Positions 21,618 to 44,099 of a stretch of DNA of 64,000 nucleotides are shown here, one piece after another. Each line of letters starts with the position of its first letter. The first letter of the stretch is position 1. A program made the translations under genes and the position numbers. Under the pieces are notes generated by a model. It worked only from the letters and a program-made list of their open reading frames with translations. It was not told the DNA's origin and searched no databases. Where the stretch lies: assembly GCF_003610195.1 (NCBI RefSeq), contig NZ_RAPO01000003.1:62001-126000 (forward strand). Direction: 5' to 3'. Source of the DNA: Halopiger aswanensis. Lineage in GTDB: Archaea > Halobacteriota > Halobacteria > Halobacteriales > Natrialbaceae.

Positions 21618-21620
21618 ATT

Positions 21621-21647
21621 TCTCTGGCGAACAACGTGAGCCAGAGA
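21621..21647 (+). repeat. Stem-loop after tRNA-Val (8-bp stem, GAAC-AAC-GTGA core)
   Basis: A perfect stem TCTCTGGC/GCCAGAGA encloses GAACAACGTGA. The core can form G-A, A-G, A-T and C-G pairs around a three-base loop. It starts three bases after the tRNA 3' end. Confidence 0.8.
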
Positions 21648-21693
21648 CATGTCTCGAAGGCGGGTTCTAATCAGGGAGGAGTTTACTCCGACC

Positions 21694-21717
21694 GTGGTTC
21701 GAACCCGCCCGAGCCCA
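21694..21717 (+). repeat. tRNA-Val 3'-end copy 2
   Basis: 24 bases identical to the T-arm and acceptor strand of tRNA-Val, 99 bp downstream of the original. No D-arm or anticodon arm is attached. Confidence 0.9.
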
Positions 21718-21723
21718 CTATTT

Positions 21724-21750
21724 CTGTCGCGAACAACTCGTGAGCGACGG
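21724..21750 (+). repeat. Stem-loop, CTGTCGC/GCGACGG with GAAC-GTGA core
   Basis: A seven-bp stem (one G-T pair) encloses GAAC-AACTC-GTGA. It follows tRNA-Val copy 2 at nearly the same distance as the first hairpin follows the real tRNA. Confidence 0.75.
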
Positions 21751-21811
21751 TATCGTGATGCGAGTGGCGGTTCGAACGACGGAACGAGCGAGCGGCAGCG
21801 AGCGAAGTTCA

Positions 21812-21834
21812 GGTGGTTCGAACCCGCCCGAGCC
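21812..21834 (+). repeat. tRNA-Val 3'-end copy 3
   Basis: 23 bases match the T-arm and most of the acceptor strand of tRNA-Val. The preceding 21767-21810 holds a degenerate GGCGGTTCGAAC element and a GAGC/GCGA-type hairpin core. Confidence 0.85.
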
Positions 21835-22239
21835 GTTTCATCACCCTCGAGTCGTCCTGGCGCCGCCCGGGCCGATCTTACTCGAGCCTGTCGCACCACC
21901 GACCAGCACTGTGTGCGATCGTGACGAGACTGCGTTCCATACGCAGTGCAACGGCACGAGCGCAGGTCTTCAGATCACCTCGGCTAATCAGTTAGTAACC
22001 GGGGGTAACATCGTGAGGGCATCCGTTTCAGCCGGTTTCAATCTGTAGGACACATCCGGGAACTGGTAACTCCGTATCGTTTCCCTTCCGACCGCAAGCA
22101 ACGGTACAAAAGGAGGCGCCCGGACGTGCTCCGATCAGCCTCGAGTCGGTCGTGAATCCGTGCGACCTCGAGTCCAGTCTAGCAGTAGCCGCTCGGCTAT
22201 CCTCGGTCGATCGCACGCCACGTGCGATCGGCGGCCCGC

Positions 22240-22985: not shown

Positions 22986-22988
22986 TTT

Positions 22989-23016
22989 CTGTCGCGAACA
23001 AATCCGTGAGCGACGG
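22989..23016 (+). repeat. Stem-loop after tRNA-Phe (CTGTCGC/GCGACGG, GAAC-GTGA core)
   Basis: A seven-bp stem, the same as one behind tRNA-Val, encloses GAAC-AAATCC-GTGA. It begins within four bases of the tRNA 3' end. Confidence 0.75.
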
Positions 23017-23046
23017 AAATGGAATTCTGACCGGATTCGTAACTCT

Positions 23047-23071
23047 GGAAGACGAACGAAGTGAGTCTTCC
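23047..23071 (+). repeat. Stem-loop GGAAGAC/GTCTTCC with GAAC-GAA-GTGA core
   Basis: A perfect seven-bp stem with the conserved core and a GAA triloop. It abuts the extra T-arm element that follows. Confidence 0.8.
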
Positions 23072-23096
23072 TCCGGTTCAAATCCCGGAGGTCCAT
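23071..23096 (+). repeat. Extra tRNA T-arm/acceptor fragment
   Basis: A T-arm CTCCGG-TTCAAAT-CCCGGAG is followed by GTCCA, which looks like the 3' acceptor strand and discriminator of a tRNA. The acceptor differs from that of tRNA-Phe (GGCGGCA), so the fragment may come from another tRNA. Confidence 0.6.
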
Positions 23097-32923: not shown

Positions 32924-33091
32924 ACCCGTCGGTACGGGACGCTCCGTCTAAACGCGAGGGCATGACCACGCCGCCGCCCTCGATACGCGAGCCGATCTCG
33001 ACTCATCGGCACGATGGCCGCTCCGTCATCGCGCCGCCTCGAGTTCCGTTCTGACGATGCCTGCGACTCGCCGGTTTGCTCGCGGCAAAAC

Positions 33092-33113
33092 GTCCGGGTG
33101 CGAGAATCGAACC
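33092..33113 (-). repeat. tRNA-His 3'-end copy
   Basis: 22 bases identical to the acceptor strand and T-arm of tRNA-His, 121 bp beyond the original in the tRNA's downstream direction. It is followed by a further hairpin (GAGC-AAACCG-GCGA core, about 33058-33089). Confidence 0.9.
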
Positions 33114-33172
33114 GTAGCCAGACGGTCGGCCTCACTCCGTTCGGCCGCTGCGACTGGCGGGGTTCGATTCTC
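33102..33172. repeat. Long stem-loop made of direct and inverted tRNA-His T-arm
   Basis: 12-bp perfect arms (GAGAATCGAACC at 33102-33113, GGTTCGATTCTC at 33161-33172) are T-arm sequence in opposite orientations. Inside, on the tRNA strand, a CGGCC/GGCCG stem (33127-33147) encloses GAAC-GGA-GTGA. Confidence 0.8.
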
Positions 33173-33179
33173 TGACGAC

Positions 33180-33211
33180 TTCTGTGGCTCACGAGTTTGT
33201 TCGCCACAGAA
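33180..33211 (-). repeat. Stem-loop after tRNA-His (9-bp stem, GAAC-GTGA core)
   Basis: On the tRNA strand TTCTGTGGC/GCCACAGAA encloses GAAC-AAACTC-GTGA. It begins one base after the tRNA 3' end. Confidence 0.8.
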
Positions 33212-33212
33212 G

Positions 33213-33285
33213 GTCCGGGTGCGAGAATCGAACCCGCGTCTCAGCCTCCACAAGGCTGAAGGATAACCACTACCCCAACCCGGAC
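33213..33285 (-). tRNA. tRNA-His (GTG anticodon)
   Basis: Eight pairs in the acceptor (GTCCGGGT/ACCCGGAC), including an encoded G-1 opposite C73, the hallmark of tRNA-His. The anticodon loop is TTGTGGA with anticodon GTG, and the T-arm GCGGG-TTCGATT-CTCGC. CCA is not encoded. Confidence 0.95.
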
Positions 33286-43662: not shown

Positions 43663-43735
43663 GTCCTGATAGGGTAGTGGACTATCCTCTTGGCTTGCGG
43701 AGCCAGGGACCGGAGTTCAAATCTCCGTCAGGACG
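43663..43735 (+). tRNA. tRNA-Arg (GCG anticodon)
   Basis: The acceptor GTCCTGA/TCAGGAC pairs fully. The anticodon arm is TTGGC-TTGCGGA-GCCAG with anticodon GCG, and the T-arm CGGAG-TTCAAAT-CTCCG. Discriminator G; CCA is not encoded. Confidence 0.94.
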
Positions 43736-43739
43736 TTTT

Positions 43740-43784
43740 CACCGACGCAATACCACCGAGCAGCGCGAGGTGTACGCGTCGGTG
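43740..43784 (+). repeat. Stem-loop after tRNA-Arg (9-bp stem CACCGACGC/GCGTCGGTG)
   Basis: A perfect 9-bp stem with a 27-base loop starts five bases after the tRNA 3' end, the place taken by the GAAC/GTGA hairpins behind the other tRNAs. The loop lacks the GAAC/GTGA core. Confidence 0.75.
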
Positions 43785-43797
43785 TAAACTCATACAC

Positions 43798-43868
43798 GGA
43801 GATTTGAGTAGGAAAGTCGCAGTGGTCGAGCGAAGCGAGACCGACCGTCTTTCCGCGTTCAAATCTCC
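43798..43868. repeat. Nested long hairpin with inverted tRNA-Arg T-arm
   Basis: The outer 10-bp stem GGAGATTTGA/TCAAATCTCC is T-arm sequence in opposite orientations. Inside it are GGAAAG/CTTTCC and then GGTC/GACC, which encloses GAGC-GAA-GCGA. The architecture parallels the long stem-loop behind tRNA-His. Confidence 0.8.
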
Positions 43869-43876
43869 GTCAGGAC
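43857..43876 (+). repeat. tRNA-Arg 3'-end copy 2
   Basis: 20 bases identical to the T-arm and acceptor strand of tRNA-Arg, 142 bp downstream of the original. Confidence 0.9.
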
Positions 43877-43927
43877 ACTCACTTATCGCAGGCGCTTCGC
43901 ATTGCTCAGCGGCTGCTCTTGCGTTCG

Positions 43928-43977
43928 GTCCTGACGTGCCCAACGCTCGCTGCGCTCGCGTTGGACTCCGTCAGGAC
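43928..43977. repeat. tRNA-Arg acceptor inverted repeat with internal hairpin
   Basis: GTCCTGACG and CGTCAGGAC (acceptor strand sequence) flank CCAACGC/GCGTTGG, which encloses a loop reading GAGC-GCA-GCGA on the minus strand. The right arm is a third, shorter copy of the tRNA-Arg 3' end. Confidence 0.8.
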
Positions 43978-44099
43978 GCTCGTGAAACGGCCGATCCTTC
44001 TCGAGCGGCGGCTACGAACTCCGAAGTAGTACAAAAGGCGACAGTTGGATAGAGTTCGAAGGAGAGACCCCGCAGCAGTCTCGAGCGTCGAGGACGACC

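Follow-up and report, generated by a model that had tools for sequence, protein, structure and literature searches.

What are the nested hairpins and repeated gene ends that follow a haloarchaeal tRNA gene, and how did they come to lie there? The question is raised by the tRNA-Arg(GCG) gene in a 64,000-nt stretch of the genome of Halopiger aswanensis (contig NZ_RAPO01000003.1, positions 62,001 to 126,000), hereafter called the window. An earlier note had described a nested-hairpin layout behind this gene, and indeed every piece of it was found, base for base, including an inverted acceptor-end pair around CCAACGC/GCGTTGG, which is present at 43928-43977. The tail consists of two units, A and then B on the opposite strand, with the following parts.

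43663..43735, plus strand: tRNA-Arg(GCG), the putative landing gene, whose positions 53-73 are the copied part (ARAGORN; copy profile)
43736..43788, plus strand: hairpin 1 of unit A, CACCGACGC..GCGTCGGTG with an inner GAGC/GCGA (DNA fold, z -3.5; homologous position in other units)
43796..43807, plus strand: inverted T-arm (left arm) of unit A, ACGGAGATTTGA (12-nt complement of the tRNA-Arg T-arm; cognate matching across 96 units)
43808..43856, plus strand: type I core of unit A, GGAAAG-T-CG-CAG-TGGTC-GA-GC(GAA)GC-GA-GACCG-AC-CG-T-CTTTCC (DNA fold, z -4.6; structure as in His; compensatory changes in 32 relatives)
43857..43876, plus strand: direct copy of the tRNA-Arg 3' end (right arm and acceptor strand) in unit A, GTTCAAATCTCCGTCAGGAC (20/20 identical; 89 copies with boundaries at G53 and 73)
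43877..43979, motifs on the minus strand: unit B, of the acceptor-stem type, with the copy GTCCTGACGGAG, the hairpin CCAACGCGAGC-GCA-GCGAGCGTTGG, the inverted CGTCAGGACC and then a GAGC..GCGA hairpin (14 orthologues with compensating stem changes)
43928-43936 and 43969-43977: inverted acceptor-end pair GTCCTGACG / CGTCAGGAC, flanking the inner pair CCAACGC (43940-43946) and GCGTTGG (43958-43964)

When three segments of the Arg tail were folded as single-stranded DNA and compared with dinucleotide shuffles, z values of -3.5, -4.6, and -3.6 were obtained; the core of unit A contains GAGC-GAA-GCGA. The same plan had been claimed for tRNA-His, and it was found there on the minus strand with a core structure matching that of Arg. 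The other tails in the window are composed as follows.

33212..33284, minus strand: tRNA-His(GTG) (ARAGORN)
33180..33211, minus strand: hairpin 1 of the His unit, TTCTGTGGCGAACAAACTCGTGAGCCACAGAA (sequence; DNA fold)
33160..33172, minus strand: inverted T-arm of the His unit, GAGAATCGAACCC (complement of the tRNA T-arm)
33114..33159, minus strand: type I core of the His unit (pattern match; DNA fold)
33092..33113, minus strand: 22-nt direct copy of the tRNA-His 3' end in the His unit (sequence comparison)
33059..33091, minus strand: second, hairpin-1-like remnant beyond the His copy (sequence)
21619..21717, plus strand: tRNA-Val(TAC) unit 1, with hairpin 1, inverted arm, type II core and copy (sequence comparison)
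21718..21836, plus strand: tRNA-Val(TAC) unit 2, in tandem (sequence comparison)
22986..23095, plus strand: tRNA-Phe(GAA) unit, partly diverged (sequence comparison)

The predicted secondary structure is identical for the His and Arg core hairpins. Its outer part comprises an arm of 11-13 bp, an internal loop, a stem of 5-6 bp, a T-T mismatch, and two CG pairs, and its inner part a CAG/AC loop, a stem of 4-5 bp, tandem G-A pairs, and a GC-GNA-GC cap. The His tail folds had z values of -4.0 and -3.2 against dinucleotide shuffles, whereas the tRNA-Asn tail folded no better than its shuffles (DNA z +0.7). The earlier note had used tRNA-Asn as an internal contrast to His and Arg, but tails are present at four of the five tRNAs of the window (Val, Phe, His, and Arg); Val carries two units and Phe one diverged unit, which leaves Asn as the odd one.

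Altogether, 105 distinct units were collected behind 24 tRNA kinds. They are non-coding and about 80-200 bp in size, and the interval that they copy runs over 21 bases, from G53 to base 73 of the cognate tRNA. In the 89 copies profiled, identity to the cognate tRNA was 0.97-1.0 from G53 and at least 0.89 up to base 73; outside these edges it was 0.61 at position 52 and 0.53 at position 74. The inverted arm follows the sequence of the cognate tRNA as well: over four T-stem positions in 96 units, arm and own T-stem pair in 281 of 384 cells, whereas 1000 shuffles that reassigned the arms averaged 192 pairing cells and never exceeded 213. Each cassette has a body that includes hairpin 1, and at its 3' side a second, cassette-end hairpin. 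The latter has this inverted T-arm copy as its left arm and the T-loop and T-stem of the next tRNA-end copy as its right arm. Its cores fall into types that carry our own names: I (AGTCGCAG..ACCGTCT), Ib, II (CAGGGAGNAGC-TTC-GCTNCGACCG), III (CTGAGGTTCTGCGAGC..GCGAGCAGGTTCTCAG), and plain stems. For 61 of 96 cores, the closest relative sits behind another tRNA kind. At five loci (L055, L058, L067, L123, and L127), the core loops are lengthened by nested palindromes (e.g., GGGATCTTCGATCCC and GGCGCGAAGCGCC) and resemble a variable terminal structure.

Gain and loss were followed among relatives, with 47 Natrialbaceae loci compared around the neighbouring moaB gene. The unit behind tRNA-Asn is missing in the window and in many species and present in others, and the Asn contrast is a presence/absence polymorphism; the absence noted earlier stands for the window but is not a property of tRNA-Asn, since several related species have a unit there. 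Two strains of Natrinema hispanicum (L074 and L076) provide one filled and one empty site, in which the flanks align and the difference is one whole unit. Orthologues of tRNA-Arg are followed by A alone, B alone, A-B, or B-A, with several unrelated hairpin-1 sequences, and unit B sometimes lies immediately beside the tRNA. Tandem arrays contain up to four units (L122), in which the cores differ and the tRNA end is constant. If arrays grow at the tRNA, inner copies should have fewer mismatches than the outermost ones. Indeed, we counted 0.27 mismatches per 20 bases in inner and 2.2 in outermost copies, with some of the outer matches of 5 mismatches possibly being due to chance.

The hairpins are conserved as pairs. 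The GARC/GYGA pair of hairpin 1 was counted as G-C in 75 cases, A-T in 54, A-C in 13, and G-T in 7 (20 broken). Across 32 cores of type I, two positions of the middle stem each show three Watson-Crick types with almost no breaks (m4, CG 21, GC 9, AT 2; m3, GC 15, AT 12, CG 3), and the CG pairs co-vary (c1, CG 29, TA 2; c2, GC 28, AT 2). RNA helices tolerate G-U. Counted at aligned positions, because an unsupervised count over all stems barely separated even tRNAs and had no power, G-T and A-C mismatches occur at 42:45 in the arms, hairpin 1, and core of the units but at 70:4 in tRNAs of these same genomes, counted over T and acceptor stems (Fisher 3e-11, a value that is too small and overstates independence, since the sequences are related). 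This count excludes, as a stem terminus, an arm-end column with 22 G-T; its inclusion gives 64:45 and 1.8e-8. The units show no preference for G-T, which argues for a constraint at the level of DNA, with the compensatory hairpins kept as DNA and not as RNA.

How specific are these structures for tRNA genes? The genome that holds the window comprises 4.87 Mb in 17 contigs, and the tail of each tRNA found was inspected, a survey that the earlier note had proposed. At 15 of 45 tRNA loci, a 19-nt copy of T-loop plus acceptor end (at most 3 mismatches) was found within 700 bp, and about 19 of 45 carry tails once diverged units are counted (Phe, Pro-tgg, Ser-cga, and the third Asp). Equally complex arrays at random sites had been named as the observation that would speak against the reading, but this was not seen: the same 19-nt copy turned up at only 123/17447 random window positions (0.7%). 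Genome-wide, the GCGAAC..GTGAGC form of hairpin 1 has nine matches and the type I core pattern three, every one of them behind a tRNA. Specificity for tRNAs holds for these two elements but not for the bare GARC/GNA/GYGA hairpin (CGARCGNAGYGAG), which has 52 sites in the genome, about three times as many as the reversed control (17), with roughly 9 in tRNA tails and most elsewhere. Three tRNA-Asp(GTC) genes lie within 3.6 kb (contig C3:246936-250480, L042) with a related tail unit behind each, and a methyl-accepting transducer-like gene separates the second from the third.

Beyond this genome, a pattern in which a T-loop is joined to hairpin 1 at 10-40 nt spacing has matches in 267 of the 391 haloarchaeal genomes searched, which belong to 63 of the 86 genera, and the reversed pattern had zero matches in each of the 391. 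The pattern is strict and underestimates the distribution; it misses the Arg hairpin 1 of the window itself. Some haloarchaeal genera (g29, g57, and g20) are almost without it. In a phylum-wide sample, 36 genomes matched, all within the order of the window, and the exact pattern was found in 0 of 242 genomes of the other classes, whose base composition differs. The claim that one mechanism underlies the tails of two unrelated tRNAs is strongly borne out by a unit family behind 24 tRNA kinds across Halobacteria.

A second class lies upstream of tRNA-Gly, -Gln, and -Thr genes. Its units repeat the first 11-13 bases of the tRNA as a direct copy and also contain the hairpin GAGCAGTTCCGNNGGAACTGCGA, the acceptor strand in inverted orientation, and a hairpin of the GARC form. 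The pattern was found just upstream of a tRNA in 15 of 15 fetched loci, some of them in tandem. Examples are contig C3:246600-246669 and L035 (upstream of tRNA-Gln-ttg) as well as L165-L179. Unit B behind tRNA-Arg is of the acceptor type on the opposite strand and resembles this 5'-side class.

Taken from the sequences compared, the Arg tail is probably an array of small, non-coding mobile DNA cassettes that are anchored on the tRNA and use its T-loop as a landing site by means of folded DNA. Integration itself is a step that we infer. A site-specific recombinase would act on a folded single strand of the cassette, with cutting and joining at G53^T54 in the T-loop. The inserted cassette would provide a new 3' end for the tRNA and push the old one outward, and this displaced end would then serve as the right arm in the hairpin of that same cassette, much like insertion by attI x attC in integrons; arrays would grow by repeated insertion at the tRNA. 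Insertion at G53^T54 with displacement of the end would explain the edges of the copies, the tandem order, the filled and empty sites, and a hairpin kept at the level of DNA. Exchange of cores between tRNA kinds would require a step beyond simple crossover, possibly a correction of one hairpin arm by the other, or else insertion with duplication of the target. More tentatively, Halobacteria might host an integron-like system with tRNA genes as platforms, in which folded single-stranded sites insert at G53^T54 and one arm adapts to each tRNA, and a related class works outward from acceptor ends, on the 5' side or on the reversed 3' side.

A recombinase and a vehicle were looked for. No integrase lies near the arrays among the window neighbours examined. 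The genome has 11 Phage_integrase genes, of which none is classed as IntI and none lies beside an array. Proximity to integrases had been proposed as a correlate of the arrays, but no association was found: the only one of the 11 that adjoins a tRNA sits at Gly-tcc, which has no unit. At this locus (L156, contig C2:1086267-1087599), a conventional integrase gene lies directly downstream of the tRNA, and a neighbouring gene looks, by eye, like one for a GmrSD-type (DUF262) restriction protein. Two tyrosine recombinases of the same genome (the L154 query and the L158 recombinase domain) were tried as candidates for the enzyme, and neither correlated with the arrays across 40 array-rich or array-poor genomes. 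In L158 (contig C1:886738-887235), the tyrosine recombinase domain is fused to sensor-like domains (PAS/GAF by eye); it resembles the fam30-04 type (PMC8371274), and relatives of L158 occur in array-poor genera too. Circular intermediates and within-strain events were not seen in the sequences compared. A viral vehicle was considered and rejected: the four pattern matches in viral contigs are without a tRNA and look like chance coding matches, and two core patterns had no matches there. BLAST of the Arg tail against phage and plasmid collections gave only one weak 26-bp match, inside a viral gene, and the phage, plasmid, and viral collections yielded neither a larger relative that shares these ends nor an autonomous parent.

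The units could instead act as RNA in the trailer of the pre-tRNA (in processing, in attenuation, or as a small RNA), where the inverted T-arm would shield the T-arm of the tRNA or compete for it. Strong predicted folds, sense-strand motifs, the position beside the tRNA, and a copy edge that coincides with the mature tRNA 3' end fit such a role, but G-U is not preferred (42:45 versus 70:4 in tRNA stems), many orthologous tRNAs are without a tail, and T-rich bases right after the tRNA seem to indicate termination of transcription. Since, in addition, Rfam has no match except the tRNAs, and unit B and the 5' units would require separate explanations, we regard a trailer RNA as quite improbable. 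Quasipalindrome correction is a known process that yields perfect arms. Replication slippage and template switching at palindromes might duplicate tRNA ends in this way with no dedicated enzyme; this would fit the perfect arms and the nested loop palindromes and could explain the cognate match of the arm. Homologous cores and hairpin 1 behind 24 tRNA kinds in 63 genera of one class only, the constant boundaries (G53 and 73) of the 89 profiled copies, and different cores inside one tandem array nevertheless make slippage very improbable.

Alternatively, the units might be mini-integrative elements that ordinary tyrosine integrases with tRNA targets move in trans, with double-stranded att sites and with the inverted arm and core as protein-binding sites. 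Archaeal integrases prefer tRNA 3' ends and can use short att sites, down to 8-13 bp (PMC8371274); the 21-bp block of identity and the filled/empty pairs would fit attL/attR, and the genome has 11 integrase genes. However, the stems vary freely as pairs (GC/AT/CG), which fits pairing better than binding to a fixed sequence, no integrase adjoins the arrays of the window or the carrier tRNAs while the integrase-adjacent tRNA is without a unit, and the phage, plasmid, and viral collections hold no large relative with the same ends. We therefore consider double-stranded integration in trans unlikely and favour cassettes that insert as folded DNA.

Which known system do such cassettes resemble? Arrays of variable units whose order differs between relatives are shared with integron attC sites and integrase-less clusters (CALINs), as is a putative junction at G^TT. 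The imperfect hairpin that ends each unit has its counterpart there as well, down to the short complementary ends, the internal loop with a second stem, and a cap that varies. ORF-free cassettes are known among integrons as well. A folded, pairing-conserved site at the cassette end, as integrons have, is found in the tRNA units at the level of structure only: the attC consensus ends are RYYYAAC ... GTTRRRY, but the units end in the tRNA T-loop GTTCRAN and its complement. Unlike integron cassettes, the tRNA units land in a T-loop, have ends that copy the local tRNA, are non-coding, and occur at many loci per genome; no Phage_integrase gene of the genome that holds the window is classed as IntI. 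Islands and proviruses that target tRNAs restore the tRNA gene and leave the displaced 3' fragment as a direct repeat (PMC4383910, PMC8371274). Such a repeat and empty sites also exist here, as with Islander-type islands and SNJ2-like proviruses, but the units, at about 80-200 bp, have neither the integrase nor the cargo genes of an island and differ in their tRNA-matched inverted arms, conserved hairpins, and tandem order.

Tandem units behind a tRNA, each with a tRNA 3' end, are also known from the tyrT tail of Escherichia coli, where repeats of about 178 bp carry the last 19 bp of tRNA-Tyr (rtT RNA). These repeats occur at one locus, are described as RNA and peptide coding, and to our knowledge do not belong to a tRNA-matched hairpin family. 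When the window was scanned with the covariance models of Rfam 15 (gathering score), only tRNA and RNase P were returned, and RF00391 was not among the matches. With MITEs, IS200/IS605, and the PATEs of Haloquadratum, which are non-autonomous haloarchaeal elements with palindromic DNA ends of fixed sequence (PMC3119063), the units share palindromic DNA ends and a non-autonomous nature. In contrast to the fixed ends and autonomous parent of MITEs and PATEs, the ends of the haloarchaeal units follow the target tRNA, and insertion is tRNA specific. The open literature searched covers archaeal tyrosine recombinases, archaeal integrons, and PATEs; we found no description of the tRNA-tail units in it, and an earlier description in subscription literature is possible.

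Fragments of tRNA ends such as these can mislead tRNA annotation and the calling of att sites in archaeal genomes. As a pattern that stands behind tRNAs in two thirds of the sampled haloarchaeal genomes, has no match in Rfam, and was not met in the open literature searched, the units would amount to a novel class of mobile DNA. If the cassette reading is true, recombination of folded strands as in integrons is not limited to attC sites, and a possible route is given by which tRNA genes became preferred sites of integration. The tails would then serve as a natural experiment on DNA hairpins that have to track the sequence of the gene ahead of them.
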